Below are positions 12,652 to 46,315 of a stretch of DNA of 64,000 bases, one piece after another. Every line of letters begins with the position of its first letter. Position 1 is the stretch's first letter. This DNA is from Methylovulum miyakonense HT12. Lineage in GTDB: Bacteria > Pseudomonadota > Gammaproteobacteria > Methylococcales > Methylomonadaceae. The position numbers and the translations under genes are program-made. The stretch covers positions 2,378,690 through 2,442,689 of the forward strand of contig NZ_KB913025.1 in NCBI RefSeq assembly GCF_000384075.1. Reading direction: 5' to 3'. The notes under the pieces were generated by a model. That model worked only from the letters and a program-made list of their open reading frames with translations, was not told the DNA's origin and did no database searches.

Positions 12652-13308
12652 TCAGTTTTCAATCTCCGCTTCATCAGGCTCGCTCCCGTTGTCATTTTCC
12701 GATGGATCTTCTGGCTCAGCCATCAACCCCGATTCCTCCCTAGCCATTCGCACTTCCTCCCCACGTCCCTGCGCATAAGCCGCCTGATGTGCCCGTTGCT
12801 CTATCGTCACAATACGCCGTGCCAGCCGATGTAACCGCTGTTGCCACTGGTATCTTGCGGTTGAACATTGCTTGCTGGTTAAAATCTGGCACAGCCAAAG
12901 GGTGTCCATGGCAATCATCAACAGATCCAGTAATTTGATCAGTTCGACAAACTGGGCAATTTGCGGTGAGGTGATTTTGGCTTTGAAATCCGTTGGGTTG
13001 GTATATTTCGGCGATTCGGCAATGCCGTTATCGGCGCATAGTTTATCGAGCCGGGCTTTTTCCTGTTGAAGCTGTAAGGCACAGTCGCCGATCATTTTAC
13101 TGACCACCGCTTCGATGTCGTCAATCGCCTGCTCTTGTCCGACGATCCGCAAGATGACATCAATCGCATAGAGCGAGCGGATCAGACGGCCATAGCTGCG
13201 GCGGATCACCCGGATCGCCTGTTCGCTGTGGATCTTGATGCTGCGTTCAAAAACCGGGCGGCTGATCGCCGGGCGGATGGTTTTTTCGGGTGCTGTATTG
13301 TCTGCCAT
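12652..13308 (-). CDS. Helical ICE protein, possibly AcaB/DUF1845-like
   Basis: A 218-aa mostly helical protein: a basic N-terminal segment with RVIRRSYGRLIRSLYAIDVIL, a middle coiled region, and an acidic tail (SENDNGSEPDEAEIEN). ATG 13308 is preferred over 13356 because AAGGAA sits 7 bases before it. General shape and location beside recombination genes recall the DUF1845/AcaB regulators of IncC/SXT-type elements, but no diagnostic motif could be confirmed and this naming is tentative. It is transcribed away from the bet gene; the 436-bp region between the two starts holds the bet leader. Confidence 0.6.
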   Translation of the reverse strand: MADNTAPEKTIRPAISRPVFERSIKIHSEQAIRVIRRSYGRLIRSLYAIDVILRIVGQEQAIDDIEAVVSKMIGDCALQLQQEKARLDKLCADNGIAESPKYTNPTDFKAKITSPQIAQFVELIKLLDLLMIAMDTLWLCQILTSKQCSTARYQWQQRLHRLARRIVTIEQRAHQAAYAQGRGEEVRMAREESGLMAEPEDPSENDNGSEPDEAEIEN

Positions 13309-13514
13309 GCGTGTTCCTTGGGAGGTTGGTGGTTCACACCCGATGGTAAGTGGCATTTTTCTTATCCGAGTTGCAAAAGATGGGTGATGGGGCGGTTTTT
13401 TGTAGCGGTTGATCGCGTGTTTTCCGCTTCAATGTCCAGCGATTGCGCTGAAATCTAAATTTTTAATCAGCAACCTTTTTCAGTGATCTGTTTAACTTAT
13501 CTCTGAGCTCCCAA

Positions 13515-13617
13515 CACTTCATGCCGCCTTTCGGGACGGCTTGATCCGGCGTTGGTCGGCGTTCCGCTTGCAGGCGGCGTGGATGGTTTCCATCGACGTG
13601 TCGGGTGCGTTAAGCCC
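13515..13617 (+). ncRNA. Repeated structured leader motif, copy 1 (upstream of bet)
   Basis: A stretch of about 103 bases nearly colinear with 24195-24297. Shared blocks include TTCATGC, CTTTCGGG, GATCCGG, CGGCGTTCCG, AGGCGGCGTG and TCGGGTGCGT..AAGCCCG. It can fold into consecutive hairpins: GCCGCC/GACGGC; CCGC/GCGG; GATGG TTT CCATC; CGGG/CCCG. Where the copies differ, base pairing is kept. It lies about 130 bases before bet, so it is probably a transcribed leader or cis-regulatory RNA; the class is unknown. Confidence 0.6.
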
Positions 13618-13687
13618 GATGATCTGAAGGCATACCAAGCCTTGATTAACCCGCCGCGCAGCCAGTGCTGTTGCGGTTTTACCCACT

Positions 13688-13719
13688 GGGGACGCTCCCC
13701 ATTGGGGCATGGCGTCCTC
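13688..13719 (+). promoter_or_regulatory. Leader hairpin just upstream of bet
   Basis: GGGGACGC (13688-13695) pairs with GCGTCCTC (13712-13719, one G-U), enclosing CCCC ATT GGGG. The ribosome-binding site AAGGAG follows at about 13732. The same CCC-nTT-GGG core recurs before the genes at 26277 and 26948. Confidence 0.55.
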
Positions 13720-13744
13720 TGATTTATTGATAAGGAGAAACGCC

Positions 13745-14797
13745 ATGAGCCATACAGCCAAAAACAACTCCCCAAACACCCGTAACCTGCCGATGCCGGT
13801 TGACGCCCATCAGGTTTACGGCTTGTCGGAGCAATCCTGGAAAGTCCTGACCGACGTCACGTTCCCCACCGCCAAAACCCCGGAAGCCATCCTGATGGCG
13901 CTGGATTACTGCAAAGCCCGCAAACTGGATATTTTCAAAAAGCCCGTGCATGTGGTGCCGATGTGGAATGCCAGCTTGGGGCGCAGTGTCGAAACGGTCT
14001 GGCCATCCATTATGGAAATCCAGACCACCGCATCCCGGACGGGACTGTGGGCGGGCATGGACCGGCCAGTCTGGGGGCCTGATATTACCCGAACGTTCAC
14101 CGGCAAATTCAAGGACGACAATGACATCTGGCAGGAAAGCACCGTCACGGTGACCTTTCCTGAATGGGTGGCGGTGACGGTCTACCGTCTGGTCGGTGGC
14201 TGCCGTTGTGCCTTCACTGAAGAAGTGTACTGGCTGGAAGCCTACAGCACGATGGGCGGCAAATACTCCCAGCTGCCGACTGCCATGTGGATCAAACGCC
14301 CCAAAGGCCAATTGGGCAAATGCGGCAAAGCGGCATCGCTACGGGCGGCCTTTCCGGAAGAATGCGGATATGCCGCCGAGGAGATGGACGGTAAAAGCTT
14401 GGACGATATGACCGAAGCCACCGTGATCAATGGCAGTACCAGCCGCATCGATGATGCCCCAGGTGCTGGTAATAATGCCGCCAGCCTTGCGGAAGCACCA
14501 GTCGTGATTGACTTGACCATGATCAGCGTAAAAGTCCAGAAAGCCGTCAAGGAACTGGTCAGGCGCACGGTCGAAGCCCAAGCCTGGAAAGCCGCTTACG
14601 ACTATGCCAACCACAAATTTAGCGGGCTGGATTTGACCTATGCCATCACTGAATTGGACAAAGCTTCGGAAGCGGCCAAAGCCTCGTTGGCCAATACCCT
14701 GGGCAACCAGACCATCGACTACGCGTCAATGCCGCCAGTGGCCACACCCGCGTCGGAAGCCTTGCATAAAGCCCGTGAGATGTTGGTTACTCCGTAG
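13745..14797 (+). CDS. bet: Bet/RecT-type single-strand annealing recombinase
   Basis: A 350-aa RecT/Bet-family protein, which anneals complementary single strands during recombination with a 5'-3' exonuclease. Family segments are visible: PEAILMALDYCKARKLDIFKKPVHVVPMW, followed by WPSIMEIQTTASRTG, YWLEAYSTMGG and KCGKAASLRAAFPEE. The start at ATG 13745, not the earlier in-frame 13709, is supported by AAGGAG 8 bases upstream. Bet followed by a YqaJ-type exonuclease is the SXT/R391 ICE arrangement. The C-terminal third (after GSTSRIDDAPGAG) is a less conserved linker and helical tail. Confidence 0.92.
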   Translation: MSHTAKNNSPNTRNLPMPVDAHQVYGLSEQSWKVLTDVTFPTAKTPEAILMALDYCKARKLDIFKKPVHVVPMWNASLGRSVETVWPSIMEIQTTASRTGLWAGMDRPVWGPDITRTFTGKFKDDNDIWQESTVTVTFPEWVAVTVYRLVGGCRCAFTEEVYWLEAYSTMGGKYSQLPTAMWIKRPKGQLGKCGKAASLRAAFPEECGYAAEEMDGKSLDDMTEATVINGSTSRIDDAPGAGNNAASLAEAPVVIDLTMISVKVQKAVKELVRRTVEAQAWKAAYDYANHKFSGLDLTYAITELDKASEAAKASLANTLGNQTIDYASMPPVATPASEALHKAREMLVTP

Positions 14798-14919: not shown

Positions 14920-15252
14920 ATGAATGCCATTGATCAATCATTGAACCGGATACCCTGCCATACCGATTGGCACCGCTACGATTCACCCACCGTGATTCGC
15001 CGGCATGGCCGCAGTTTTCTGGAACGTTCCTGGAAACCGGCCTGGGCAACCAAAAACCCGGTCAACTTATCCCTAACCGAACTTCACACCTTGGTTGACA
15101 GTTATGGCGGCCACTGTGTGGCAACCGTCGACTATCAACTGCTACTGTTTGATGACCATCATCGTGCCAGACGTTGTGACAGCCAATTGATCAAGCTGGG
15201 ACTGTCGACACAGCGTTGGGGCTGCCACATCCAACTGTTTGGGGTGGCGTGA
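14920..15252 (+). CDS. Small ICE protein between bet and exo
   Basis: A 110-aa protein of unknown function with a good ribosome site (AAAAGGAG before ATG 14920). Its stop overlaps the exo ATG (TGATG at 15250-15254), so it is translated with exo. The composition is rich in His/Trp/Arg (WHRYDSPTVIRRHGRSF, QRWGCHIQLFG). No motif was recognised; it is not an Ssb. The tight coupling suggests a recombination accessory role, which is inference. Confidence 0.7.
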   Translation: MNAIDQSLNRIPCHTDWHRYDSPTVIRRHGRSFLERSWKPAWATKNPVNLSLTELHTLVDSYGGHCVATVDYQLLLFDDHHRARRCDSQLIKLGLSTQRWGCHIQLFGVA

Positions 15253-16157
15253 TGAAAGTCGTCAACGTTTCGCAGCGGTCACCGGAATGGCGGCACTGGC
15301 GGGAACAAGGGGTCAGCGCTAGTGAGGCGGCGGTCATTATGAACCGCTCCCCGCATAAGACCCCGTGGCGGTTATGGGCCGAGAAAACCGGATGGGTGCT
15401 GGAGCAAACCCTGGACAACAACCCCTTGGTGCGCATTGGTATTGAGGAGGAAGCCAAAGCCTTGCAATGCTTTGAAGACAAACACGAGGTTCTGTTGCTG
15501 CCGCTCTGTGGCGAGTCTGAGCGTTATCCCTTGATGCGGGCTTCGTTTGACGGTTTGTCGGACAGCAACGAACCCGTGGAGGTGAAATGCCCGCATGAAA
15601 CCACCTTCCTGGAGGTGCTGTTACACCGCGAGCAATCGCCTGTGTACCAACTGCACTGGTGCCAAGTGCAACAGCAACTGTTGGTCGCTGACGCCGGGCG
15701 GGGCTTTTTGTATTTTTATCACCAAGGCCAAGACCTGGAGTTTGTGGTTGAGCGGGATGAAGCCTTTCTCATGCAACTGATCGATACCGCCATGGATTTC
15801 TGGTCGGCCATCAAAACCGGCAAAGAGCCGCCCAAAGACCCCGGACGCGATTTGTATCTGCCCGAGGGTGCTGCCGAACAGCAATGGCAAGCCTTGGCGG
15901 CAAGCTATCGCCAAAATGCGGCGAAGATGGACAGCATAAAAACCGAGCTTAAAGCCCTGGAAGTACAGCAAGCCAGCATCGAACACACCTTGGTGGGTTT
16001 GATGGGCGATTACCTGGCCGCCGAACATTCCGGTGTGCGGGTCAGCCGTTTCCTGGTGCAAGGCAGTGTCGTCGTTATTCTAGCCAAACAGGAACGATCA
16101 TTTAATTTGCTACTATATAAAGCCTTCGTCCTTAAAAATAACAAAATCATCCTATGA
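15252..16157 (+). CDS. exo: YqaJ/lambda-Exo-type exonuclease with replaced C-terminus
   Basis: 5'-3' double-strand DNA exonuclease partner of Bet. Visible features are QRSPEWRHWREQGVSASEA, RASFDGL, PVEVKCPHE (the catalytic D...ExK set) and QVQQQLLVADA. From ATG 15252 it is 301 aa. After FLVQGSV (near base 16070) the family sequence stops and is replaced by about 29 unrelated, AT-rich-encoded residues ending NNKIIL, because a cargo segment has been joined here. The frame overlaps the next start by 4 bp. The nuclease core is intact, so activity may survive; the lost tail is normally short. The call of a junction is from comparison with remembered SXT-type Exo ends. Confidence 0.85.
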   Translation: MKVVNVSQRSPEWRHWREQGVSASEAAVIMNRSPHKTPWRLWAEKTGWVLEQTLDNNPLVRIGIEEEAKALQCFEDKHEVLLLPLCGESERYPLMRASFDGLSDSNEPVEVKCPHETTFLEVLLHREQSPVYQLHWCQVQQQLLVADAGRGFLYFYHQGQDLEFVVERDEAFLMQLIDTAMDFWSAIKTGKEPPKDPGRDLYLPEGAAEQQWQALAASYRQNAAKMDSIKTELKALEVQQASIEHTLVGLMGDYLAAEHSGVRVSRFLVQGSVVVILAKQERSFNLLLYKAFVLKNNKIIL

Positions 16158-18278
16158 ATAACTCAGGCGCAAAAGCTGCATTAAAAGGCTACCGGTTCCA
16201 AACGTTATACACTTTAGTTGAAATCCTTGAATCCAATGACAGTGATAACGTATTTCAACCTGAAGGAGAAGAAGACTTAGCAATTCAAAGAAGTGGCGAA
16301 TTAACTCGTGTAATTCAAGTAAAAGCCAGAAATGAAAAGTTGACGTTATCCAGTTTTAGCCCCGAAAAGAAAGATTCATTTTTCCACAGGGTATCCGATT
16401 TACTAAGCACACATCCTGGTTTATCCATTGAAGTTGTCAGCTTTGGGGAAATCGGCACTGAAATAGAAAAAGCGTGGTCAGGAGATGAGAAGAACCGTTA
16501 TTCAATCACTGAAAAACTTAAAAAGCATGGTATTGATAAAGAAAGAATTGAAAGTTTATTTGAGAAAATACAATGGCTTGTTGTATCGGAACAGGATTTG
16601 CAAAGCAGGCTGCAAAACCATTTAACTAAAACAATGACCGCTGGCGACCCTAGCAGTGCTTTTTCTTTATTATTGGCTTGGCTTTATTATGCGGCTGAAC
16701 ATCAAGAAAAAATCACCAAACAGGATTTAATCAATAAGATTTATGCCGTTGGTAAATATCTATCAGAAAGAGCCGCGCACCATCAGGAATGGTTCAAATC
16801 AATAAAGCCTTTAATTGAAGAAGATCAAACCTATCAACAAGAGCATCTTGCAAGCGAATTTTATAAGGGTGTTTCCTCCCGTTTTAGCCACATTCAAGCG
16901 GGCTTGGATATATCCCGTTCAGAACAAATCGGCAAGATTGAGCAGGCATTCCTAAACGGGAACCGAACGGTCATTGTGCATGGTGCTTCGGGGCAAGGTA
17001 AAACAACGCTGGTCTATCGTTACTTGCATGATTTTGTTCCCGAAGAGTGGCGTTTTCAAATCAGTTTTATCGACAGCCGAAGCCATGCCGAAAGTATTGC
17101 TTCGGCGATAGCTGATCATTTGTCAGTTTTTAAAGCCGACTTGTACCTTTATATCGATGTGTCGCCGCGAGATTTGGATTGGACAGCCCTGGTCAAAACG
17201 TTATTGGATAAACCGAACATCAAAATTCTTGTCACGATCCGGGAGGAAGACCTGGCTCGGCAAAATATGCCAAATGTTGAGTTGGGCTTTCCTTTGGGTG
17301 TGCCGTTGCATTTCAATCAATCAGAAGCAGAAAAAATCTACCAAAACCTGCTGGATAAAAAAGTGGCTAATTCATACCCATCTTTTAGTGATGCTTGGCA
17401 TCGGTTTGGCGGCAATGGGGCGTTACTCGAATACGTTTACTTTCTTACCCAAACTGAGTCGCTCAAAGACCGATTGGGATTTCAGGTCAATCGCCTACGA
17501 GAAGAAACAAGACAATCAACATTAGAAGCCGCCACTTTAAAAGCGTTGTTTTACTGCGCGGTAGCAACCGCGTATGAATCTCGTATACAACTGCTTGAAT
17601 TGGTTAAGATTATCAATTTATCCGATCCAACAGGTACGTTCGGGTTGTTTGAAGAGGAATATTTAATTCGCTGCTCGGACGACAAAAGATACATTGAGCC
17701 ATTGCACCCCTTACGCTCAAAATTGCTGGTCGAGGTTATGAGCGATCCCGCGTTCAACCCGTGGATAAACGCTGCAACAGCGGTGCTTCCCTGCATAATG
17801 GAAGCAGATTTGGAAAGTTTTTTGTTGTACGCCTTTGTTGAGCATCCACGGGAATATCCCGCCATTTACCAAAAGCTTGCAGGGCTAACACTTCATAGCT
17901 GGCAAGGTTATGCAGGCGTATGTAAGGCTTTAATCTGGTATGGCATTTACGCTTATGTCGAAACCAATAAAGATGTAATCGAGCAAGCCCGTTTGATGGC
18001 AGGCAATAGCGGCTGGAAATTTCTGCTAAGACCTGATCTCACGAATGTGTTGGATGAAGACCCTACCGAATCCATCTTAGAAATGTTGGGTAAAAATAAT
18101 CCAGAAAAACTGGCTGAGACCAAGCGTCTTAGAAATCAAGTATCGTCACCAGACATTATTTATCAAGGTTTGAAAACGTGGCTAAATAACAAGTCATTTG
18201 ACCTAGCTAAGCCAGAAAATGAAACCGATTGGCTTGGTTTGAGTGAAATCCTATTTTGGCTTGGGTGGTTAAAAATTA

Positions 18279-19368
18279 AGTAATTTGACATAAGTTTTAT
18301 GGTATAAAATATAAGCTTTTTGAGCCACCGCCCCCATGCCACGTTTAAAATTTGTCCGGCCACTCAGCGACACAGACAAGCAAGAGTTGGATGCGCTTTA
18401 CAAGACCCACCCAAACTTTAAGGTGCGAAGACGCGCCCACGCCTTGTTGCTGAGCGGCAGCGGGCATACGATAAACCAGCTACAAGCCATTTTCCAGGTT
18501 GACCGTGACCCTATCAGCCAGTGGATCAACCGCTTCAACGCGCAAGGTGTCGGCGGGCTTGGGGATTTACCGCGCCCCGGGCGTCCACCGATTTACACGC
18601 CCGAAGAAATCGCACTGTTCCGGGCCCAATTGGACGAAGAACCGCGCCAAATCAAGCAGGCCCAAGCCCTTCTGGAGGCCCGGACCCGGAAAAAGTCGGC
18701 GACCGGGACGTTAAGGCGCATTTTAAAAAAACCGGTTATTCATGGCGGCGGTGCAGGCGCTCCGTAAAAAGCAGGCGTTGTGCCGAGGGCTTTGCCAAGG
18801 CCAAGGACATCCAAACCGTCATGAAACAATGGGCCGATGAAGACAAAATCAGCCTGTTCTATTTTGACGAATCCGGCTTCAGCACCACGTCCTCCGTGCC
18901 TTACGCCTGGCAACCCAAAGGCCAGACGTTGGAAATCCCCTGTTTCCATAGCCAGCGCCTCAATGTCCTGGGGTTTGTTTCCCGGGACAGCCGGTCTTTT
19001 TTCCACACCGTTGAAGGGAGCGTCAAAACTGAACAGGTGGCCGGGGCCTTCGACCTGTTTGCCGCACACTATGGCGACGGCTACGCCGTCCATAAAAAAC
19101 CGTGCGTCGTCATTATTGACAACGCTTCCATGCACACCAGCCGCGCCTTTTTGGCACGCCGCGACGACTGGATGGCGCAAGGTGTCGTGTTGCATTATCT
19201 GCCGCCCTATAGCCCTGAGCCCGACCTGATCGAAATCGTCTGGCGCAAGATCAAGTATGAATGGCTGCCCCTATCGTGCTATGCCAGTTACGGGACATTG
19301 AAACAGGCCGTATTGGACATCCTTTCAAAATTCGGCGATGAATACCGGGTTACTTTTGTGTAATTACT
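18279..19368 (+). mobile_element. IS630-family insertion sequence (copy A, about 1090 bp)
   Basis: Ends form an imperfect inverted repeat: AGTAATTTGACATAAGT at the left and, read on the other strand, AGTAATTACACAAAAGT at the right. TA is duplicated on both sides (18277-18278 and 19369-19370), the IS630/Tc1 signature. It carries one transposase split over two frames. It is inserted in the STAND defence gene. Confidence 0.9.
18336..19363 (+). CDS. IS630-family transposase, two frames joined by likely -1 frameshift
   Basis: Frame one (18336-18767) encodes the helix-turn-helix and winged-helix part (RRRAHALLLSGSG, INRFNAQGVGGL). The DDE part continues in the -1 frame from about 18735 to 19363 (KKTGYSWRRCRR, FDESGF, IIDNASMHTS, PPYSPEPDLIE). 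The switch falls on a run of seven A in TTAAAAAAACC, where a -1 slip joins ILKK to TGYSW. The same arrangement occurs in the unrelated IS630 at 21950-23169, so a programmed slip is more likely than decay. The acidic triad appears present. Confidence 0.85.
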
Positions 19369-21949
19369 TACTGAACGTTATGGTGCAAAATGGCTGCTAA
19401 AAAGTGACGTAGTTTCAAAAATTTCCAGCATCGCCTGTTTATCAGAATTAACGTTAGCCCTTTATTATTACGATAAGCAAATCTACCACGGCTTTATCCA
19501 TTTCAATAAATCAGAAATTGAAAAGCTATTTCAAAGACAAACCAATACCTTGTGGCTAGAGCAGAAACCAGGAAATCCAATTGCTCATTACATTGTGCCG
19601 ATGGCATCGACTCATGAGAACGATAATGAAGACTTTTCATCGCGACTCAATAAGCAAACTGTTTACCGTGCTGAAATTCTTAGAAGACTATTTCCTGATG
19701 CCGAAAAATTTGGTGGGAAAGGCTATGGGCATCATGTTGCCTTTATGGAGTTACCCTACGACGAAGCAAACAAACCGGGTATTTTAAAATCATCTTTGCC
19801 AATAAATCGGTTGGTAAGTATCAATTCGACTTACTCCAACTTATCGGACTATCTGTATCGCCCTGACGATTGGAAAATATATGCAGAAAATATCATATTA
19901 AATCGGCAGCAAATTGTTGACGGTTTAACTTGCCTTAATAAAGCGTTAATCGCCTTTTTTAAAAATCGCAAGCCACCGTCAATCATGGGTTGGAAAATAG
20001 ACGAACGTTATTGGGAAGAGTTGTCGAGAATCAATATGATGTCTTCCATGCTCCCCAAGTTAGCTGTTGATCATTGGGGATATACTAGCGAAGGTACTGA
20101 AAATAACTCAGAAAACATACAATCAAATCGCCCAACTCAAATAAATGCCTCTGTGATGTTAGCCGAATATAAAAATTATCAAAAAGCATGGAGTGACTAT
20201 TTACACAGTATTATCAATTTTATTACACAATCCCATCTTATTTTAACCGTTAATGGTTTTATCGGACATCGACCAAAATCTGAACATGCGCTGGTATATC
20301 AAAAAGCTGAAGAACTTGGTCATTCCTGTTCTCCGCAACATATTCATCTAACCGTAGTGAATCTGAATAATGCCAAATGTGAGCTTAAGAGCTTTCAAAC
20401 GGAATTCAGTAATAGATTTAAAGACTTAGTTAATATATCTGCGTTAATAAAACTCGAAAAACAAGAGGCGGTTAGCCTCGAAAAAGTCTGGCATCTTTGG
20501 TATCAATTTGCCCATCATCCCGAGCAATACTGGAAAGAAGCACCTGATGTGCGTGCGGCGGCGATTACCAGAAAGGTACAGGTTGGTTTAATAAACGCTA
20601 TCAAAAAAGCGCTAGCTAATCCCCAGGATTCTGAATGGCAAGCCAAGCTGCTTAGTGACACCTATTGCTATGAAGAACAACCTGCTTTGTGGATCAATTT
20701 GGAATTAAAGGATTTAACTTCATTGGAAAGGGCGTATGCCGAAGTTGTTGATGTACTGATTAATGCAATTCGTCCTCTTGCATATAAAGATTTAAAGTAT
20801 TTTGTGCTGACTAACTATTGGCAGCATGTTGTTATTATTCCAATGCTACAGGGATTGACTTCAAATCATATTGCTTGGCGAATATTAACCAGTTCATTTG
20901 CGGGTGATGAACCTATCCTGTCCGACGAGAAATCTTGGAAAAACATCCCGCAAGCCCTTCCCGAAAACGCTGTAAATCACTTTCAATTTGAACAAATCAA
21001 GGTTGATAACTTTGAGAAGACGCAATCTCTTGGTAAAGAGTTAGCTGAGTTGTATGCAGCGACTTCACATTTATCGAATTTTATTGAAATATCGAAAAAA
21101 TTGAACAGTGTAGGTCTGGATATACTGCAAGATTATTTATCAAAATTTTATAACAGGCTTGCTGAAAATATATCAACTGCTGACTCCATCATAACGGATT
21201 TAAAAAATGGAATAAAAAACGATGATGACCCTAGATTAGAAGCATTGAGACAATGCGAAAACGCCATATACCCTTATGGCAAGCCAGATGATGACCAAAT
21301 AATAGTTAATTTGAACGATTGCAAAGAATGGTCATTACTTATTCATCAAGCGTTGGCTTTTTTACAAATAATGGAATGGGTTGAATTTTAAGAACAAATT
21401 ATCTTGCTGATATTTTGTATGGCTATGCATTGAAAGCCTGCGTGCGGGGGTGCTCGGTCAGGTGGCGTTAAATCCCTAGGTCGAATTGAGAGAGTCAATA
21501 TAGACAGGATGCAAACAGTGCCCAGTCCCCGCAAGTTGAGCGTGCTGATGACAGTCACGCTGAAAGTGAAGATGAAACGGTGGGCAACCCAGACTTACCG
21601 GATCAGGGAAGGCCAGACAATGACCTCACGCATCCACCTAAGGCCGCATCATCACAACCTCACGGTAATGACTGCGACACCGGCATCACGGAACCCAACC
21701 CGATGTTGGACGCGTTATGGAATGCCGGGGATGGCGACATTGACCCTGATATTTTCGACACCGTCAAGTCGGCACTGGCGTTGGCACAGGATAGCGTTTC
21801 AGAGGTGATTCTGCCCATCGGCGATGAGCCCACGCTGGATGAACAGGCGGGGTTGGCATTGTTCCGCAAGGTGCAAGGCGAATCGGTGAAAATCCGGGCC
21901 GCATTGCAAGGCCTGGTGCAATCGCAAAGCCTGACCCGTCCGCAGCCTA

Positions 21950-23169
21950 GTACTCAGTCATTTTTTTATTGTCGGGTAAAGTTTTTTCAATTTTACCCGG
22001 GCATCTTCACTGGTAAACCGCCATTCCATAGGCTGGGCAATAGCATTTCTTTGTTCTTGCCAAGCTGCGATTTCCATCCTTAATGTTTCTTGGTCCGGAA
22101 TGCGCCGATCCAGACATTGGCGGGACAAGATGCTCAATTCTATTTCCGCCATATTTAACCAACTGCCATGTTTGGGCGTGTAGTGGATTTCCAATTTATC
22201 CAGAATTCTTCGCGCTTCCTCAGGGGCGAACGCCTTATACAGCGATGCTCCCGTGTGGGTGTTCAAATTATCCATAACCAGTGTGATGCGCTCAGCACGA
22301 GGGTACCCGACATCAACCAGGTTGCGGATTTGATGCGCCCAATCCACCGCCGTCCGTTGATCCGTTACCACCACATGCCGTTTCCCCTCTAACGGTTCAA
22401 AAAATAGGAACAGATTACTCACCCCATTACGTTCATACTCCGTGTCATACTTTTCGACGGTGCCTGGTTTTGCCGGTATCGGCTGACGTGTTTCCTTAAT
22501 GTGTTGCTTGCTGCTTTCGTCCATACAGATCAAGGGATGCGTTTCATCATACGCGCGTTGATAAACTTCCAGAACATCTTCCATGGCGCAGACAAATTCC
22601 GCATTCTCTTTAGCCGGAATACACCATTCTTTATTCTGCCAAGGTTTCAACTCATTTTTTTTAACGTTTGCCGGATAGTTTCGTGGGATACGCTTTCCAC
22701 ATGGCCCAGTTCAACCATGTGCTGCCCAAGCAATCTCAGTGTCCAGCGACTGCGTCTATCAGGGGCATCACCATAGGCTAACGCGAGCAGATGCGCTTCC
22801 TTTTCGCCGTCAATGACACGGCTTTTAACCCGGATCGGTTTAGCCCGGTTTAAGGCGGACTCCAAGCCTTCTTGAACCCATCGTTCCCGGACTCGTTCAA
22901 CGGTGCGTGTGGAAATGCCAAAGGCTTCACTGATTTGACTATCCAGCCACGGGTCGCCCCATTCACTACTATCTGTCTTGAGCAGGATTTCTGCGTGAAG
23001 CCTTTTATGGGCAGCCACTTTGCCTTTATGAATCAAACTTTCCAAATCAGTACGTTCTTCTTCTGTCAGTCGTACAATGTATTTTTTCGCCAATTGCCAG
23101 TTCCATGGGGTAATGAATAAACTCATCATATGGGGGCTGTAACTCGACATAACAATAATGACTGAGTAC
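21950..23169 (-). mobile_element. IS630-family insertion sequence (copy B, about 1220 bp)
   Basis: Terminal inverted repeats begin GTACTCAGTCATT at both ends, with further matching to about 25 bases. The target was CTAG with TA duplicated (21948-21949 and 23170-23171), the known IS630 preference. It differs from copy A in ends and transposase. It sits in the CobT-like gene in antisense orientation. Confidence 0.92.
21958..23150 (-). CDS. IS630-family transposase, two frames joined by likely -1 frameshift
   Basis: The first frame (22647-23150) encodes the DNA-binding half (ISEAFGISTRTVERVRERW, SHETIRQTLKK). The second (21958-22650) encodes the DDE half (ICMDESSKQH, LVMDNLNTHT, HGSWLNMAEIELS). 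The frames meet at a run of eight A before TGAG (around 22651-22658), where a -1 slip turns LKKMS-stop into LKKNELKPW. All three acidic residues of the catalytic core are visible, so the element may be active. Confidence 0.88.
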
Positions 23170-23654
23170 TAGCACGCGGGGACGGCTGGATGGCAGGCGC
23201 TTGCATCGGGTGTGTTTCGGTGAAACGAAGGTGTTCCAGCGCAGTGCCGTCAAACCCTCGCCGAATACCGCAATCCATCTGTTGCTCGATAAGTCCGACA
23301 GCATGGGGTATCAAGTAAACGATACGCGGGGACAGGCGATGGGCACGCGCCTGCCGATGGCGTTGGAAGCGACTCTGGCATTGGCCTTGGCGTTTGAAGG
23401 GCTGTCCGGGGTGAATCCCGGCATCACCGCTTTTCCGGGTGACCAGGATGGCTCGGTTTACCGCTTGCTGGATCACGGCCAACGCATCCGGCAGCGGGCA
23501 GGGGCCTTTTCGCTGCTGGCCAATGGCGGCACGCCGATGACCGAAGCCATCTGGTTCGGTGCCGCCGCGCTGCTGCGTTGCCGGGAACCGCGCAAGGTGC
23601 TGATGGTGATGACCGATGGCCAACCGGACGATATGGTCAGCACGCTGGCGCTGC

Positions 23655-24081: not shown

Positions 24082-24130
24082 ATCAATAGCCCAATCCCTG
24101 GCCTCAAGCCAGGTGGTTGTGGCTATTGAT
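24082..24130 (+). terminator. Long nested hairpin after the CobT-like gene
   Basis: ATCAATAGCC (24082-24091) pairs perfectly with GGCTATTGAT (24121-24130) and encloses CCTGGC/GCCAGG (24097-24102 with 24108-24113). It starts 12 bases after the stop codon. There is no T-run directly after it, but a second hairpin AGGGG TTTTT CCCCT follows near 24145. A transcript end or RNA-stabilising structure is likely. Confidence 0.5.
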
Positions 24131-24194
24131 GACTGATCTTTCAAGGGGTTTTTCCCCTGGCTTTGTATAAGCCGAGGCCAAGGGAAAAACAAAC

Positions 24195-24297
24195 ATTTCA
24201 TGCGTTCTTTCGGGAATGCAGGATCCGGTTTCAGCCGGCGTTCCGTCTTTAGGCGGCGTGCATCAGCAACGATGCGCGGGTCGGGTGCGTCAAGCCC
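24195..24297 (+). ncRNA. Repeated structured leader motif, copy 2
   Basis: Copy of the motif at 13515-13617, aligned without gaps for about 80 bases. Stems are kept with changed bases: GCGTTC/GAATGC in place of GCCGCC/GACGGC, and GCATC/GATGC in place of GATGG/CCATC, while CGGG/CCCG is identical. It lies about 100 bases before the membrane-protein gene at 24400, the same relation as copy 1 to bet. Confidence 0.6.
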
Positions 24298-24399
24298 GTC
24301 AATTCAACGTGCCTTTGGCACTTATTCAATCCCACTTCGGGCGATCAAGACCCGTTGGAGGGATTGTTCATTCGAAGTTGCACAATTAGGAGACTTTCA

Positions 24400-24936
24400 A
24401 TGAACTTTATCTTTGGCATGATCGTATTGGCGTTGACCATCATCGCCGTCCGGGTGATCTGGACAACCCTGTGGCAAACCCTCACTTTTTTGAAATCGGC
24501 TATCCGCCGGATCCAATTGAAAATGGCGCAGCGGAACCTGAAGTCCATTTCACCGGTGACGATGCCTTGCCTGCCAGCCCAGGCTGACTGGGACATCATG
24601 GCGGAGAGCGTCCGCTATGAAATCCAGCGGCGCAACACGGGGCTAGACCGGGAAGCCAACCGGCTGGATGCCCAGTTGCAGGCGAAATTGAAAACCCTGG
24701 AGCTAATCAAGGCCGACATTCAAATCGCCAAACTGGAGCAGGAATTGCAAAAAGTCAGGCCGGCTGTGCTGGTGCAGGTGCCTGAAGCTAAAAAGCGCAA
24801 GCGCACGAAAGCATCAGAACCAGTGGTGTCAGGGGAAAATGTCTCCACTGTGCCGCATCAGGTCCACCAGTTACGGGCGGCCTTGAAGGGCGGTGCTGTA
24901 AAGGTGGATAACGCTAATGGGATTGTCCGCCATTAA
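24400..24936 (+). CDS. ICE membrane-anchored coiled-coil protein
   Basis: A 178-aa protein starting at ATG 24400 (AGGAG 9 bases upstream; an earlier in-frame ATG at 24355 lacks such a site). One N-terminal membrane segment (FIFGMIVLALTIIAVRVIW) is followed by a basic stretch and a long coiled coil (EANRLDAQLQAKLKTLELIKA and beyond), ending in a KKRKR-containing tail. Function is unknown. The position after the CobT-like gene suggests an ICE backbone protein. Confidence 0.7.
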   Translation: MNFIFGMIVLALTIIAVRVIWTTLWQTLTFLKSAIRRIQLKMAQRNLKSISPVTMPCLPAQADWDIMAESVRYEIQRRNTGLDREANRLDAQLQAKLKTLELIKADIQIAKLEQELQKVRPAVLVQVPEAKKRKRTKASEPVVSGENVSTVPHQVHQLRAALKGGAVKVDNANGIVRH

Positions 24937-29193: not shown

Positions 29194-32100
29194 ATGGGCT
29201 GGCAATATTCCACATGTTTCAAAATCATCTGTCGGTTGGTGTTGATCTCGTTTTATTTTCAGAGCGTCAATCCGGTCAGTTATGGCTACCACCCGCAAGG
29301 ATTTGACTGGCCTATCGGCTTTAGCGAAGCGGCGGCAGAACCCCCAAATTCAGGTGTTTCACCTAATGCAACAGTCAAGTCCGCTACCAAAGCCCCGGTT
29401 ATAGCCCCTACGCTTGCCCCCGGTGATTACCTCGGCTCCACCCCCGAAGCTAACACCTCCGACCCCTACATCATCCAAAAAGCCACCGCGCTTAACCACG
29501 ATCCGGCAAAAATCTTCCAGTTCGTCCGCGACCAGATTGGCAACGAAGTCTACAAAGGCTCATTGCGCGGCGCACGCGGCACCTTGTGGAGCAAGGCGGG
29601 TAATGCATTGGATAAGGCCAGCTTATTGGTTGCTTTGTTGCGGGTTTCCGGTATCCAAGCCCGATATGCCCAAGGCACATTAGCAGATGCGCTGAGCAAG
29701 CAAATCATCAATTCCATGTTCAAAATGCCATTGAACGTGGTGGGTTGTCCTGACGAAAACGCCCCGCGCTCAACACCCGACACTAATGCCGGTTTACTAA
29801 CGGAAGCACGTGGGCATTTCTGGGTTGAATACAATAATGGCAGCGGTTTTCAGGCGGTTGATCCCAATTTTCCAAGCGCAACAGTAGGCAAAACGTTTAC
29901 CGCAACGACAACCACATTCGCGGAAATACCGGATAGTTTGCGCCATAAAGTGACAGTACGGTTGAAACGGGAATTATACGGCCAGTTTGCCGGCATACTC
30001 GGAAACAACGACGCCCAAGACATGAAAACCGCACTGGAGCGTACTTTTACGACGGTGGAACTGGTCGGTAAGCCGCTCTCTATCGGGCATTTCGTCAATT
30101 CCTCTTCGGTGGGCGGCTTCGGTTTAAGTTCAACCACCAACACCTATTCCCCATATTTTCTGCTGGGTCAAGGCGATAGCGACATTAGCGACGACACCAT
30201 TATCCGTGGCACCGACTATCAGGAACAACTCACCAATTTTCCGCTGGCAAGCACTTACCTATCCGGTGTTTTCCTAGAATTTGAAGTGTTTGATGCTAAC
30301 GGCAAATCACAGCTTTATGAACGCACCATCGCCGACCGCATTGGTTACGCGGCACGCCAAAATGGCGGCACGAGTACTCCTACAACATTGACTGCTGACC
30401 AAACGCTGGTTACCGAAATGGATATTGTTACGGCGAATATTTTGCCGGGTTTGCAAGAGCCGTTGGCATTGAAACCACAACAGGATCGTTTGAAAAAATT
30501 GCAGGATCAATACAATGTCATTAAGCCAGTGCTGGATGGCATTCCATCTACGGGAGCGGAAACCGACGCACAGAAACAAGCTCAAAATAAAGCCGTGTCC
30601 ATAAGCAGGTCTATGGCTTCGGTTACTAATGAAAATATCGGTATGACTTTTTCGTTATCATCCGATGTATCGTTAGGCCAATTAGAAAAAGGCTACATGA
30701 CGAAAGCCTATTTTGCTTCCCCTCGCATAACCTTAGCTCAATCTAAATTGGACGGAGATAAATTTAGATTTTCGATCGACCTACGGAAAAACGATGTTCG
30801 TACCCACGGTTTTCCAGGACAAGTTGAAAATGTCGAATATCCGTTTGAAATGATGCGCGGTTTGATGGAAAGCTCGCTTGAAGGAAAGGTCTTAGCCGCG
30901 AACCTAGGTCAATCTATCATTTCAATAGCGGATGTTTTCTCTAACGTTACAGGCGATAACGGTATTGTTTTAATCACGCCGGATAGCAAAGAGCAAATTG
31001 CTTTGCTTCAATTGTCTGCAGATGCGAAAGCAAGGATAACCAAGGCAGTCAATTCAGGAAAAATAGTCGCTACACCGACTAATAATGTCACTATCAACGG
31101 ACAAGAAATTGTTAAGTGGCTTGAAACTGACACCGTAACTGGTCATACAATTAGTGTGTCTGAAGATGGAGGTCATAGTGAGTTTATTGAGTATATTGCA
31201 ACACTCAATAGTGCAATAAATAAAGTAGCATTCGCTTTTGTTGGAGCAACTCAAGGCTATGCGGTAGCACAGTTCACCTTTATTGGGTCATTGCTTAACG
31301 GTATTAACGATATTACGGAGAATACAGAAATCAGCACAATAATCAAGAAAGCCAAGCATGATGTCGGCGTTAGTTTAATTACATCCATCATACAATTTGG
31401 TATAGGGAAAGGGATAGATCGAATAACAGATGTAAAATCCTTAAAGAATCTTGGTCTTAAAGCTATAACCTGTGGATTATTTGGTGTGGCACAAGGAGAT
31501 CTTACTGTCGGCGGCGTGATTCAATGTCTTGTCAAGGAGATAGGAATACCTAGCATTGATGCTCATGATTTAGTTGAGTATTTCGACTTAGGTATGCTGG
31601 CTGGTATGGGAGCGGCTCTTGTCTGGATAGATCGAAATTTTCCCGTAGACCCTGTTGTTTTCCCCTATCTCTCTAGCGACCTAGCACCAGTACCTGCATT
31701 AATAACACCAAACCCTAAACCAGGGCTATCGCTAAATATCGCCACAGATACGCTGTTTACTTTCCCTGTTCACGGAGGAGCAGAAATCCCCTCTGTTTTC
31801 AAAGCGCAAATCCGCAACACTGGCCCGACCCAAGACACCTTTAAACTGGTTTTCAGCAATGTTCCGGCGGGCTTTAAGGCGCAAAGCAGTATTCCCACTG
31901 TAACCATTCCGCCAGGTGCCACGGCTGAAGTAGGTGTTTGTGTCAGCCCAACCAATGGTACTACGCCGCCAAAAGGCACACCCGTACCCTTTACGCTAGA
32001 CGTTTCTAGCACCAGCAAACCCAGTGTGAAGGCTACCGGTAACCAAAGCTTTACAGTGCCGGACATCCATTCGGTTAGCTTCGATTTAGACAAAGCTGCC

Positions 32101-35100
32101 GTCAGCACCACACCCAACAGCAGTTTTAATACGACGCTGAGCATTGGCTCAACGGGCAACGCCAGTGAACAAATCACCTTAAAAGCCACCATCCCCAGCG
32201 GTTTGCATGTCACTGGCTTACCTGCAAGCCTTGCCCTGAACGCTGGCGAAACTAAACAGTTGCCGCTGACGGTGAAGGTTGATACGGGGATTGCCATCGG
32301 TCAATCATTCGATGTGGTGTTAACAGGTGACTTGGCAGGAACTTCGCCCGCCATCCAGCAAACCGCCACGCTGCATGTTGATGTGCGCTCGGCTCAGGGT
32401 GTTGCTATCGACAATTCTATTGTCCAAGCATCAGTTGGTGGTAACAACCAATTGCCTGGCGTGTTAACGGATTTACGCAATACGCTAGACCAATGGAAAG
32501 GCGACCCTAACAACAAGAGTTTGTGTGAACGCGCCCGTCTGGCGTTGGATAATATTTATAAAGTCGCTTCGGGCGATCCGTTGTTGAGCAATTTTGGTAA
32601 TGACATCACCACACTGCGTAATCTAGTGAAAAGCTGTGATGTCACCACGTTGTACCCGCAAGTACCCAATGTAGTGACGGAACTGGCACAAACCAGTGCG
32701 ATGGGCGTGGTGGCAGAATTGTCGCCCAATATGGCGGCTACTCCACCCAAGCTTGCCAAGTCGGTCAACCTGACCTTGAAAAATCGCGGCAAGCAGCCTG
32801 CTTCGGTTAGTCTTGCTCTAACGGGGTTATCTGCGTCGGTTAAGGCGGCGTTATCTTCCAGTACCGTTACCTTGGCGGCTGGGGAAAGCAAAACTGTACC
32901 GATTACCTTAACACCTTCGGCATCAGGCCGTTTCCCGTTTAAGGTTGTGGCGACAGTGGCGGGCTTTAAACCCACCGCCAATGCTTATGGCTTATTGGTA
33001 AGTGCCAATGCTTCCGTCAATATTATGTCGGTCAATAGCTCATCACCGTTTATTTTGGCAGGCGGCACAACGCAAATCCAAGCCTCCATCGCCAATACGG
33101 CGGGGATACCCATTCAAGCCAAGGCGGTGGTGACCATTAAGGATTCGAAAGGCGTGTTGCGTTACCAAAGCCCGTCGCCAACCTTATTGGACATTTCAGA
33201 AGGCGATGCGGGCATTCCGTTTAACCTCGACAATATAACGGCGAAAGACTGGGCTAATGACACTTATACCGTGCAATTGCAGTTGCTGGATCAGAATAAC
33301 CAGCAAATTACTGGCGGATTAAGAAGCGGGATTTTGAGCGTCGGCACACCGATCAAAGCCAGCGCAACCGCCAGCCCTATCCAAGTGCCACCTGGCAATA
33401 GCCTAGTGACCACGGCTATCAATGTCAAACCCGCTTTCTCTGGATTGGGCGGGGCGATTGGCTTGGTGCCGACTCCGGCGGATAAAGACCGGATTAACTG
33501 GGCGGCGGCAAGTCGGGGGGCAAAAATACAAGTGACCAATCCTGGGCCGGCAAATGGGGTTCCGTCTTCACTGATTGATGAACTACCCGGCGTAGCAAGC
33601 AATGAATGGATCGGCGTATTGTGGGCTAAACCTTCTGGCAGCTATTTGGTAGATTTAGGGCAAGCCCGCAATATTGATACCGTCCAACTTCATGTTTGGG
33701 ATGGTGATAATCGGTATGCCCGCTTCAAAGTTGAAGGTTCGCTTGATAATAAAACCTTCTTTTTGCTTGCCGACCGTTCTACAGGGGAATATCGCGGTGT
33801 GCAAAAAGTCGCTTTTACCGCAAGGGATATTCGTTATATCCGTATCACCGGACTCTTTGACAGCCAAGAATCGTCTTTCTACCTTTATGACGAAATTTTA
33901 GCGATTGGTGATGATGCGGCAACGCCAGTCCCTACCCAAACCGTGGATGTCGATGCGGTTATCAATGGCGGGGCTGATTTCACTGTCGGCCAGAAAGTCA
34001 CGCTGAATGCCGGGATTTATGAGCTTAAACAGACCAGTGGAGCGGTGTCATTATATCCTGCTGACACTGACAACAACGGGCTGACTTGGGGTTCCCAAAT
34101 TAGGGTGAGCCTACCTGCTGTTAATAAAGATTATCTGACTGGGACTACACTGTATTATCAAACCAAAGCGGAAGCAGAAACGGCAGTTTTAGGACAAACG
34201 ATAAAGCTCTATCTTCCTGTCCATGCCGATGTGTATCTATGGGTTTCAGATAGTGTCCGTGAAGATAATCGAGGTTCAGAAACAGTCGAGATTCGGCAAA
34301 TTTCAGGGCCTAACGATCTGTTGCCTGTTCGGATACGCGATGCCATGACCCGAAGCGTGTTATGGGAGCAGGAAGATGTGGCGTGGTGGAATGGCTTTGG
34401 GGGTCAACCATGGACGCAACAACAAAACAATGGTTATTACTGTTCGGGTTGCCATGTGCAAACCCAAGCATCCACTGGCTTACAAATTTCCAAGAAAAAA
34501 TTGCCTGAATTACCGATTGATTTGGATTTACAAGAAAAATTTGTTGATGCTTATGCGGTTTGGCAAAACCCGGATGCAGGTTGGGTATCCCCTTTTCATG
34601 GTGGTGGTTACGCGATAACGCAAACCTCTTTGTGGGCTTGGGCGGTTTCCCGTTTTGATGGCGTTCAGTTTGACCGACTTGCAGGAAACTTAACCGCCGC
34701 TTTGGATTGGTTGATACAGCAAAATCCTGATGGAGGATGGATAGACGATCACGGTAGTTCGCAACTTTATGGCGATGGCGGAGGTAATGTTATTAGTGCC
34801 ACCCACACCGCCGGCAATATTCAGGCTCTGTCTAAGGCATTAGGCTATATGGTTGGCAAAAACGTCATCGCTTTGCCAGAAAACCAAGTGTTGGCAACAA
34901 ACGGACAAGCCTCATTCGATCATGATTTAGGCAATAAAGCCGAGATATACGGTTTCAAGACCATTGATAATATTACTGGGATAAAAGTCACCGTAAATGA
35001 TGGCTTCCGTGATGACGGGAATTTTCTGATAGAAGAGTTGCAGGCTTTCATTGGCACAACCAAACAAACGCCAAGTAGTGCCAAAGCAAATTTCTCGCAA

Positions 35101-38100
35101 ACAGGTTCTGGCATTGACCAAACGATAGACGGCATTGTCGCCGATACCGCAAACGGTTGGGCCTATGCCCCGCAAAGTGTCAAAACCACCCCTGCGCAAG
35201 GTTTGTGGGTGTTTAACACACCAGTAAACTTAGATAACCTGCGTATCACCCAGGCTGACGGTAATCGCCTGAAACAATTCACCATCGAGTACACCACCGA
35301 TGCGAACCCTACGTTGTCCAGTAAGTTCTTGCCTGTCAGCGAGTTGCAAGTGGGTTACTCAACCGCTGATCGGGTCAGCAATTATAGGGATGCCTTGATT
35401 CGTGCCGCAAATACTTTTATAGCGTCTGATTGGCCTTACACAAGGAATATCCGCACTGCCGCGCAAACGATCATCGGACTGAAATCGGCAATGCCGTATT
35501 TAAGTACCGATTCCGCCCAAGCGGCGGACATTCGTATTAAAGAGGTGGCTAATTATTTACGTAGCCAGCAACGCAGTGACGGCGGGTGGAAAGATTCTAC
35601 GGATGGCAGCAATGACTTTTCACAGGCGTTGCCGTCAGCCGAAGCTTTGGAAGCCTTATTGTTGGTGACCAACAATAGCGTCGATCCTGGCGTTATCGCA
35701 GGGGCGGAATATCTTTTATTGACCCAATCAGGCCAAGGCTCTTGGGCTCCGCCACCGGGCTTGGCAAGGGCGCTGGCATCAACGACTTGGGTGGAAATCG
35801 CTTTGCCCACCATTTTTGAGAATCTGGCATCGGTCACTCTGGGCGTTGACCACAGCATTCCGAGCAACGTATTCCCTGTAACAGGTTCGTTTAACCCCGT
35901 ACCTAAATCGCAAACTGCAACGGCATCGCACTGGGATTCCCTATTGAACTCGGATGCAAACGGGCAAACCTTCTCGTTCTTGTCAGACATACAAAACATG
36001 CGGCCCGGTGAAGTCCGGCAGATCAGCAATGCCACCAAAGTAAGTTTTAACAGTATTGCCGGAAAGGGGGTCGTCAATTTACCGCCCATTGTGGTCAATG
36101 CGAAACATATCTTGGCACTGACCCCATTCAAGCAAACGATAGCAGCCGGAAGCACGGCAACGTTTAATTTGACACTTGAAAACCCATTTGCCACCGCCAC
36201 GGATTTTGCTTTGTCGGTCAATGGCTTGCCGGATGGCCAATATGTATTGCCTAAGGCCCTTACTTTACTCCCAAGTGAAAAGAAAAGCTTTGAGCTGAAT
36301 GTTTATGCTCCGGTCAATAGTTTGGGGGGAGATGTTGATTTTGCTGTAAACGCTAAGTCAACATCAGGCACAACGGATACGGTTTCCGGCATACTCTCCA
36401 TCACCGAAGGCAAAAACAACCCGCCGCCTGATGTCAATTTGGGGGACTCCGCCGTCAGCCTGTCGTTGTTGCCTGCTTTAGCCCAAGCAGGGCAAGGAAC
36501 ATCCGCACAATACACGTTACGGGTTTACAACATGGGCGACAAGACCCAAAGCTTCCTATTGTCTTCGACCAGCGAAAGCTCAATTGGAGTCCGTTTAAAC
36601 ACAACCGAAATTGTTGTGCCGCCAGGCATGATTAATTATCGGGATGTGGCCGTTACGGCAATGCCTTCTTTGGGAACGGTCACCGGTAACCATAATATTG
36701 GCTTCACAGCCATCCAAAAATCGGACAACGCTATAAAGAATGTGGCGTCCGGCGTTTTGAATGTGCAGAAATTAGGTGTGAGCATTGCTTTCAATCAATC
36801 GACAGGAAATGTGGGCAGTATGTTCTCGTTGCGAATCACCAATACGGGGACTGTAGCTGATCTGTTTGACCTATTTTTGGGTGGGCCGGCTTCATTGTCT
36901 GCGACGTTAAGCCAAAAAAGCGTCAGTTTGGCAGCAGGGGCATTTGTTGACTTTAAGATCACCTTGGGCAAATTTGACTGGTCGCTACCGGGTAGTGTCA
37001 CGCTGGTTGGAAAAGCAGTATCCCATACCAATACGGCAGTGAATGCCAGTGATGATGCCACCATCAATGTTGCCGGGCTCAAGTCTATGAGTGCAAGCAT
37101 GTCCCCTGCAACCCAAACCTTGGCGACACCGGGGACTGCCAATTTTACTGTGCAGGTAAAGAATACCGGGAATATCGAAGATGCCTATTCCGCCTTCATC
37201 ACTCAAGTTACCGGGTCTGCAACAGCGACATTGACCGGACTGGATGGTAGTCCGGCACAAAGTATCCCCTTATTCCGCTTACCTGGCCTGGCCTCAGGAA
37301 ATTTAAACCTGTCAACCCGCCTGAATCAGCCTGGTACAGGCATTGTGAAGGTGCGTGTCAGTTCAACGACCAACACGTCGATTTTTAAAGATGTTTTGGC
37401 ACAAATTAACGTGCCCATCCCGAATAAACCGCCAGTCGCCAATGCCGGAGTGGATAAAAACGTTTTTACACAATCCGATGTAATCCTCGATGGTTCCGCC
37501 AGCAGTGATCCTGACGGCGATTTGATCACTTATTTATGGCATTTTGTCTCCGTCCCGGCGGGTAGTGCCATTAATGATACGGCCTTTGACAATAAAAAAG
37601 CCGCCAAACCAAAATTTAAACCTGATTTGGCTGGCATCTATCAAGTGAATTTGGTGGTCTCTGACGGTCAATTGGCAAGTAGTCCGGACGTGGTGAAGAT
37701 TACGGCAGCCAAGCCCAATATTCCTCCCAATGCTTTGGCGGGTGCGGATAAAACGGTTGCTTTAGGCAAGTCGGTAATTTTGGACGGCAGTGCCAGCAAT
37801 GACCCTGATAAAGGGCCGGCCGCCCTAAGTTTTGCTTGGAGCTTGAAAACAGAGCCCGAACCTGGGCATGGCTTTCTTAAAGATGCCAACAAATCCATTG
37901 CCGGCTTCAGTGCAGATGTACCGGGCGCATACACTTTGGCCTTACGGGTATTTGACGGCAAAGATGTTGGCAATGACACCATGAACGTTACGGTAACGTA
38001 CGACAATGTACCGCCTGTCGCCAATGCCGGAACTGACTTTGATATTCATCTGGGTCAAGCAGCGGCCCTTAACGCCAGCAGCAGCCACGATCCCGATAAT

Positions 38101-42751: not shown

Positions 42752-43057
42752 ATGTCGACCCTCGAACAAGACCTTGCCCACTTGAATTTTGAATACCTGA
42801 TGCTGGCACGGGAATGTGCCCGGAGCAATCCCTTGGAAGCCGCCTGGCGGTTTGGTGTTGACCCGGAGCAGATCGGGGAAATTGCCGGGTATTCCTTGGA
42901 AAGGATACGGGAACTGTCAGACATCGCGAGAGCCGTAGTGACGCTCATTCCGCTAAACACGTCACAAAACGTCTCTTTGGCATCCCATAGCGCATTACTA
43001 ATCCCCGTTAAAAAGCATAAGATGGAGGGGCTAAATGCCCCGCTTACCCGCCAATAA
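42752..43057 (+). CDS. FlhD-family transcription activator subunit (SetD/AcaD-like)
   Basis: A 101-aa protein. The segment LNFEYLMLARECARSNPLEA followed by AWRFGV matches FlhD (INLSYLLLAQRL...MFRLGI), and the next helices also fit. FlhD-type proteins dimerise and, with FlhC, activate sigma-70 promoters; in SXT and IncC elements the same pair (SetCD/AcaCD) switches on transfer genes. The location near int/xis and absence of flagellar genes favour the ICE role. GAGG precedes ATG 42752. It overlaps the FlhC-like gene by 23 bp. Confidence 0.8.
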   Translation: MSTLEQDLAHLNFEYLMLARECARSNPLEAAWRFGVDPEQIGEIAGYSLERIRELSDIARAVVTLIPLNTSQNVSLASHSALLIPVKKHKMEGLNAPLTRQ

Positions 43058-43628
43058 ACTGTCTGACATGGGCTATATCTGGGTTGTTGCCGATAAACTG
43101 TTCAGATTGGGCGCGAGACCTCCCGTCGTGCGCTCTTTGTGCCCTATCGGCAAAAAAACCGCGATACGCCTTTACCAAACCATCTACCAGCAATCACCCA
43201 AACAAGGCCTGTTGCCTTATGATCCCTACTGGATTGTCCGTTCTTCGGTGATCAATATCCATGCGTCAATATTCCTGGGGCTTTTTCAGGATTTCACCCG
43301 GCAGCAAAACCAAGACGGATGTCCTGCGGAGACATTCATTGCCGCCTATGAACTGTATTGCCGGGTAGTGGCACATAATCCTCATCCCAGCAAACTGGAA
43401 GCCGGGGTGACACAAGCCATTTTGTTGGACATTAACCGGGCATGGCAATTATCCGGGCAATTGCGGGCGGGTGAAATAGGGCTGGTCATTTGCGGGAAGT
43501 GCCAGGCAAGGCATGTGGTGCTCACTAAAATGCCCAAGCCTTTCCAACAATGCCCGATCTGTGAGGTCTGGGCTGACAAGTCGGGTCGGCGCCGATGGGT
43601 TACTGTCAACGCAAGGAAAATTACCTGA
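43035..43628 (+). CDS. FlhC-family transcription activator subunit (SetC/AcaC-like)
   Basis: A 197-aa protein with the FlhC plan: LFRLGARPPVVRSL near the N-terminus, GLLPYDPYWIV (FlhC GMLPFSTDWF), INIHASIF (FlhC NVHASMF), and the zinc site CGKC...CPIC near 150-175. It should form a heterocomplex with the preceding FlhD-like protein. GGAGGGG lies before ATG 43035. The gene is intact. Confidence 0.85.
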   Translation: MPRLPANKLSDMGYIWVVADKLFRLGARPPVVRSLCPIGKKTAIRLYQTIYQQSPKQGLLPYDPYWIVRSSVINIHASIFLGLFQDFTRQQNQDGCPAETFIAAYELYCRVVAHNPHPSKLEAGVTQAILLDINRAWQLSGQLRAGEIGLVICGKCQARHVVLTKMPKPFQQCPICEVWADKSGRRRWVTVNARKIT

Positions 43629-43700
43629 CCGGCTATCTGTGTTCATGGACAGTTTTTTGAAACCGGGAATGATTGGACAATCGCCTGGGGGAGAAAGAAA

Positions 43701-46226: not shown

Positions 46227-46315
46227 TTTGTACCTATAATTTTCACTATTGGTAATAAAATGGTAACGAATTTTTCTAATCTGTCAAGATGGTTGTGCTA
46301 ACTGTTTGAATTTTA

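Follow-up and report, generated by a model that had tools for sequence, protein, structure and literature searches.

A conserved structured RNA of about 105 nt, built of five simple hairpins (H1–H5) and lying on the sense strand, occurs twice in the window, the stretch of 64,000 nucleotides analysed here, each time ahead of a gene of an ICE. Its fixed position and orientation relative to these genes, together with its sense-strand structure, mark it as a probable cis-regulatory mRNA leader. Two further hairpins (H7 and H8) follow the domain, and we consider it probable that the two parts act together as the cis-acting mRNA leader of an SXT/IncC-like element, in which a shared, probably factor-sensing domain sits atop a translational attenuator. 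The initial annotation, made from the window sequence, had noticed the two copies; it did not see that an element normally carries three such domains, that a start-codon-sequestering attenuator stands behind them, or that the family appears to be limited to the methane-oxidizing Methylococcales.

Two stretches of about 103 bases had been reported to align almost without gaps some 100–130 bases before ICE genes. Both were found in place on the + strand, with the start of bet (recT) at 13745 and that of the second gene at 24400, 128 and 103 nt past the ends originally assigned. A blastn search of the full 4.69 Mb genome with one copy retrieved the other at 72% identity (E = 1.2e-7) and gave nothing better than E = 0.1 besides. 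An 11-base core, GGTGCGTYAAG, is unique to these two sites within the window, and covariance model scores are 112.8 bits for copy 1 and 111.5 bits for copy 2. Copy 1 (13516–13623, + strand), delimited by its model match, helices and covariation, folds into H1 (13523–13528/13535–13540), H2 (13546–13550/13555–13559), H3 (13560–13568/13573–13579), H4 (13582–13586/13590–13594) and H5 (13601–13605/13615–13619, loop UGCGUUAAG). Copy 2 (24195–24303, + strand, model match), which is position 3 of the three-copy set, comprises H1 (24202–24207/24214–24219), H2 (24225–24229/24234–24238), H3 (24239–24247/24252–24258), H4 (24260–24264/24271–24275) and H5 (24282–24285/24295–24298, loop UGCGUCAAG). The compensatory changes first proposed for two stems hold with two small corrections: GCCGCC/GACGGC forms five of six pairs with one C.A mismatch, although GCGTTC/GAATGC in the other copy forms all six, and the exchange of GATGG/CCATC for GCATC/GATGC is truly compensatory, but the stems are offset by one column. 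The motif is also larger than described, its five hairpins being followed by H7 and H8, which reach the start codon.

Covariation was assessed by an average-product-corrected G-test in a structure-free MAFFT alignment of 48 copies under 95% identity, and the null was generated by redistributing the observed substitutions over the tree. By this phylogenetic null, our own R-scape-like re-implementation and not R-scape itself, 9 of the 32 proposed pairs covary significantly (E < 0.05). Each of the five helices contributes one or more of them, whereas pairs that do not belong to the proposed structure all stay at E = 1 or above over all pairs of the 48-copy alignment. Unguided RNAalifold recovered H2–H5, with 13 doubly changed pairs. 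Across 80 distinct model-aligned rows, an alignment that leans to the model for that reason, pairing is kept in 94.4% of cells vs. 33–49% with the partners slid, and 432 cells are doubly changed vs. 136 expected in shuffles. Because G.U cells (254) far exceed A.C cells (32), the gene-sense strand is the structured RNA; the conserved structure suspected from two copies is thus borne out by covariation in all five helices and by strand-specific G.U pairing. The H5 loop, UGCGUYAA, and the GGCGUUCCG junction between H2 and H3 are near-invariant. The motif is not part of a coding frame, since its copies differ by single-base indels.

Comparison with Rfam placed H1–H5 in no existing family. At gathering thresholds, Rfam 15 matched only tRNA among RNA families in the window; up to E = 10 nothing related appeared, the strongest matches on or close to the copies (E = 4.9 and 0.35) belonging to unrelated families far below their thresholds, and the homologous loci likewise matched no family.

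Further copies were found by blastn in 101 relatives and in plasmids, where all matches fell in Methylomonas and pLM6 and pUP202 carry three copies apiece. We built a covariance model (R1; 12 sequences, 31 pairs) and ran 1,341 genome-searches altogether, recovering, as the initial annotation had proposed to look for, over 100 homologues in ICEs and plasmids. Within the family, R1 found 104 copies in 23 of 201 genomes; within the order, 39 of 251 Methylococcales genomes matched at E <= 0.01, about 36 of them strongly and with a second family included. Only chance-like matches were returned by a class sample of 369 genomes, and in a phylum sample of 398 the genome of origin alone was matched. 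A pattern scan of contigs from 84,980 species bore out this distribution by name, with Methylomonas, Methylobacter, Methylovulum, Methylomicrobium and Methylocaldum. Viral contigs gave no pattern match and phages no match, and the motif is absent from plasmids of Allochromatium and Azospirillum that share the gene module. The domain appears, on these searches, to be restricted to Methylococcales, with no convincing match elsewhere among the genomes scanned. Several candidates were set aside: three weak class-level matches (L063–L065), in which H4 or H5 is broken, attain E of about 0.001–0.005 over 369 genomes and are attributed to chance; pattern matches in Sphingomonas, Kribbella, Pseudomonas and similar genera are unsupported by the covariance model; and binning errors probably account for two MAG contigs, one of Geobacteraceae with a score equal to that of a Methylobacter contig and one of Methyloversatilis.

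The usual dose is three copies per MOBH-type ICE or plasmid, spaced about 3–6 kb along one colinear gene string. Orientation is always sense, and where the gene is identified its start codon nearly always follows 92–152 nt downstream. At position 1 the gene is ssb, or bet as in the window; at position 2 it is a small gene of about 70–96 aa, which in several loci is followed by a CbbQ-type AAA ATPase; and at position 3 it encodes a membrane protein of 166–180 aa with an N-terminal hydrophobic segment. The genes downstream of the leaders serve recombination, not metabolism. Across nine genomes that carry bet, the motif adjoins 21 of 24 bet genes. Where the comparison was made, in this genome among others, a MOBH relaxase lies 43–113 kb off in the same direction. 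Most copies resemble others of the same position more closely than those of other positions (mean identity 77% for ssb and 79% for the membrane protein, vs. 57–67% across positions), which argues for descent in place.

The sequence upstream of the domain has features of its own. A further hairpin (H0) directly precedes H1 in the window (24110–24193) and in many position-2 and position-3 copies (e.g., loci L025, L042 and L072), with arms such as TTTTTCC...GGAAAAA or TTTGTCGAATG...CATTCGACAAA that apparently covary, as judged by eye only. Long palindromes, e.g., TTGCAATAAATTGCGAATTCGCAATTTATTGCAA, lie upstream of ssb copies (L117, L119, L099), and GCTTCAAT is common to ssb copies about 50–80 nt before H1; both are candidate activator or operator sites. 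A scan of the upstream regions for the sigma-70 consensus found no promoter, a result that is uninformative for activator-dependent promoters.

The element in the window has an SXT/IncC-like (MOBH) layout, with a MOBH relaxase, an FlhCD-type activator, an integrase and a bet/exo module, and the ICE context proposed at the outset was confirmed by the activator genes, the tRNA-adjacent integrase and the relaxase. Behind copy 1 lie bet, encoding a RecT family single-strand annealing protein (13745–14797, +; PF03837 at 4e-15, TIGR01913 over cut-off), and exo, of the lambda-exonuclease (YqaJ) family (15216–16157, +; PF09588, TIGR03033). Copy 2 precedes a gene for a 178-aa protein with an N-terminal hydrophobic segment (24400–24936, +), which is conserved behind position-3 copies and for which neither NCBIfam nor Pfam gave a family over cut-off. 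FlhC, FlhD and FlhC-like genes occupy 43035–44793 (+; PF05280, PF05247), in a family that includes SetCD and AcaCD, the activators of SXT and IncC elements (PMC4344509, PMC4207636). An integrase gene (45420–46226; PF00589) beside a tRNA gene (46319–46402), both on the - strand within 45420–46402, likely marks the ICE end.

This ICE is degraded and has lost its middle leader copy. Colinearity with contigs of the same genus (L080 to 16064, L086 from 21416) delimits a replaced stretch (16158–21415), in place of which relatives carry leader copy 2 of 3, the small gene, an AAA ATPase and DUF3150; in the window it now holds a Cap4/STAND-like gene, an IS630-type transposase (assigned by eye) and others, and no AAA or DUF3150 match. 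The divergent gene at 12652–13356, in a stretch colinear with L080 and L120, stands where relatives have the gene that faces away from the operon head. The Cap4-nuclease/STAND-NTPase-like gene, directly after exo (16154–18283; Pfam matches just under cut-off), is possibly a defence gene. A VWA (CobT-like) gene is interrupted at about 21940–23180, where 38-nt inverted repeats (79% complementary) make an insertion sequence probable. Large ICE cargo lies at 29194–38673: a protein of 3,159 aa that combines transglutaminase-like, F5/8 and PKD domains, followed by an autotransporter-like gene.

The second part of the leader is a pair of predicted hairpins. In the RNA fold of 13515–13765, H7 of the bet leader (13682–13706, +) places CCCA/UGGG outside UGGGGA/UCCCCA, a layout it shares with the IncC bet leader (compared with pAR060302), and H8 (13708–13747, +) pairs CAUGGCGU (13708–13715) with ACGCCAUG (13740–13747), so that the start codon is predicted to be base-paired and the Shine-Dalgarno to lie inside the hairpin. 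Behind copy 2, H7 (24328–24365, +) has AAUCCC/GGGAUU around CGGG/CCCG, and H8 (24366–24405, +) pairs GUUCAUU-CGAAG with CUUUC-AAUGAAC, in a predicted fold that fully pairs the start codon (24400–24402). In the leaders of bet, the small gene and the membrane protein, H7–H8 is predicted to pair with or enclose the Shine-Dalgarno and the start codon; ssb leaders have a terminator-like hairpin in place of a clean H8, and their control may perhaps be transcriptional. The IncC bet leader contains the same hairpin pair, CAUGGUGU with ACACCAUG vs. CAUGGCGU/ACGCCAUG in the window, and the start-codon stem changes in a compensatory manner (GGUGU/ACACC in IncC). A passage in a review states that bet/exo expression in SXT is held back by a strong translational attenuator ahead of bet, and that IncA/C plasmids have this attenuator too (PMC4542580). 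That passage and the comparison with the IncC leader suggest that H7–H8 is the SXT attenuator, and the window bet leader, with its Shine-Dalgarno and start codon predicted to be sequestered, appears to be an attenuator hairpin of the SXT/IncC type. Start-region pairing in bet and ssb leaders was not significantly above that of control genes of the same plasmids, partly because the control genes carry attenuator hairpins too; those of pLM6 have strong start hairpins as well.

We propose that H7–H8 would keep the recombination genes poorly translated, which is what has been reported for bet of SXT, and that H1–H5 would be the shared receptor for a putative trans-acting factor, which might be a small RNA, a ligand or an RNA-binding protein encoded by the element. 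Through H1–H5 such a factor could adjust translation of the three gene groups together, and the recombination genes would be made only when needed, e.g., after DNA damage or entry into a new cell.

Start-codon hairpins are a wider pattern in IncC plasmids. In the IncC recombination module almost all genes carry a strong hairpin over the Shine-Dalgarno or start codon (L125 4652–22297, L124 530–9899), and in pAR060302 the 36 module genes fold with a mean of -18.5 kcal/mol vs. -10.1 for 72 other plasmid genes (p = 8.5e-12; folding window -48 to +9). IncC plasmids also have a repeated leader domain of their own, with six copies in L125 (pAR060302 78000–100500) at 4521, 5565, 10400, 14232, 18646 and 22428 and others in L128 and L129; it occurs in 869 plasmid records, with 4–7 copies in most listed records, and matches no Rfam family. 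Comparison of IncC, Vibrio and Aeromonas plasmids shows covariation in its stem (GCGA/UCGC, GAGA/UCUC, GAGG/CCUC, ACGU/ACGU), and its invariant AGCUG...CAGC could form a pseudoknot.

A broader reading, which we advance tentatively as a possibility rather than an expectation, is that these leaders represent a new class of regulatory RNA: conjugative elements would set H1–H5 at the start of a single long recombination operon and again within it, start-codon hairpins would block the translation of each gene of this operon separately, the RNA would recruit an element-encoded antitermination or RNA-binding factor or sense a conjugation or DNA-damage signal, and in IncC resistance plasmids an unrelated domain would have evolved to do the same work. 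The alternative that H1–H5 serves processive antitermination or counters polarity, being loaded at the operon head and two internal points, seems to us unlikely, though it deserves some weight. Sequestering hairpins would lead to poor translation and expose RNA polymerase to Rho, and H1–H5 would keep transcription going. The put RNA of phage HK022 is a comparable antitermination RNA. The spacing of the three copies along a single gene string, the start-codon hairpins on many module genes and the presence in IncC of an unrelated domain repeated inside the module are all consistent with this logic, as is the treatment of the homologous SXT string as one large SetCD-activated operon (PMC4344509); H1–H5, however, resembles no known antitermination RNA in Rfam.

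Rather than opposing termination, H1–H5 might choose between a terminator and read-through on sensing a ligand or protein, as in a riboswitch-like or transcription-attenuation leader. Such attenuation would be most plausible at ssb, where a hairpin with a U-rich tail separates H5 from the Shine-Dalgarno (L040 1671–1692 and others); its CCGCGC loop could pair with GCGCGG further downstream, and in L096, read by eye, the two change together to CCGTGC/GCACGG. In the leaders of bet, the small gene and the membrane protein, however, the stretch from H5 to the start codon holds no convincing terminator (the bet leader gave a single weak match, which shuffles equal; the others were read by eye), and no known aptamer fold matches, which leaves this account distinctly improbable for the family. 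A role at the DNA level, with hairpins of the transferred strand serving as single-strand promoters, recombination sites or protein-binding sites, would suit their strength and a module that encodes single-strand annealing and exonuclease functions, but the excess of G.U over A.C pairs points to RNA and position and orientation before genes are fixed, and we regard it as very improbable. That the domain is a MITE- or REP-like mobile repeat, spread without function in host genes, is suggested by several similar copies per genome but is barely credible given three fixed positions, descent in place and long-term compensatory change.

The reading of H1–H5 as a probably factor-sensing domain above a translational attenuator joins familiar kinds of element, structured leaders and the bet attenuator, to an H1–H5 family, a triple use per element and a coupling to the attenuator that are undescribed as far as Rfam and the literature searched show. 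It adds an RNA family with strong covariation and no Rfam match to elements related in layout to SXT and IncC, which are major carriers of antibiotic resistance, and ties it to control of their recombination genes; work on H1–H5 also led to the start-codon hairpins and the repeated leader domain of the IncC module. The system offers a testable case of whole-operon control at the RNA level, a layer for which we found only the bet attenuator described in the literature searched.

Among known RNAs, the radC motif is linked to mobile DNA. It is, like H1–H5, a candidate cis-regulatory RNA of Proteobacteria (RF01754, listed in PMC2864571), but neither window copy matches its model at E up to 10. The STAXI motif, too, is structured and recurs close to ssb and other genes of DNA handling, but is described as tandem pseudoknots (PMC2864571), whereas H1–H5 is five simple hairpins, not tandem and without an Rfam match at E = 10. 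The IncC repeated leader is, like H1–H5, reused several times in a homologous module upstream of similar attenuator hairpins, yet is unrelated in sequence and fold (one hairpin plus GCGA-AGCUG-UCGC and a downstream CAGC). The attenuator of SXT/R391 ICEs and IncA/C plasmids concerns the same gene, bet, in the same type of element with FlhCD-like activators, and the H7–H8 pair is common to the window and IncC bet leaders; unlike IncC, which is without H1–H5, the Methylococcales elements add the 105-nt domain upstream and repeat it at three genes.
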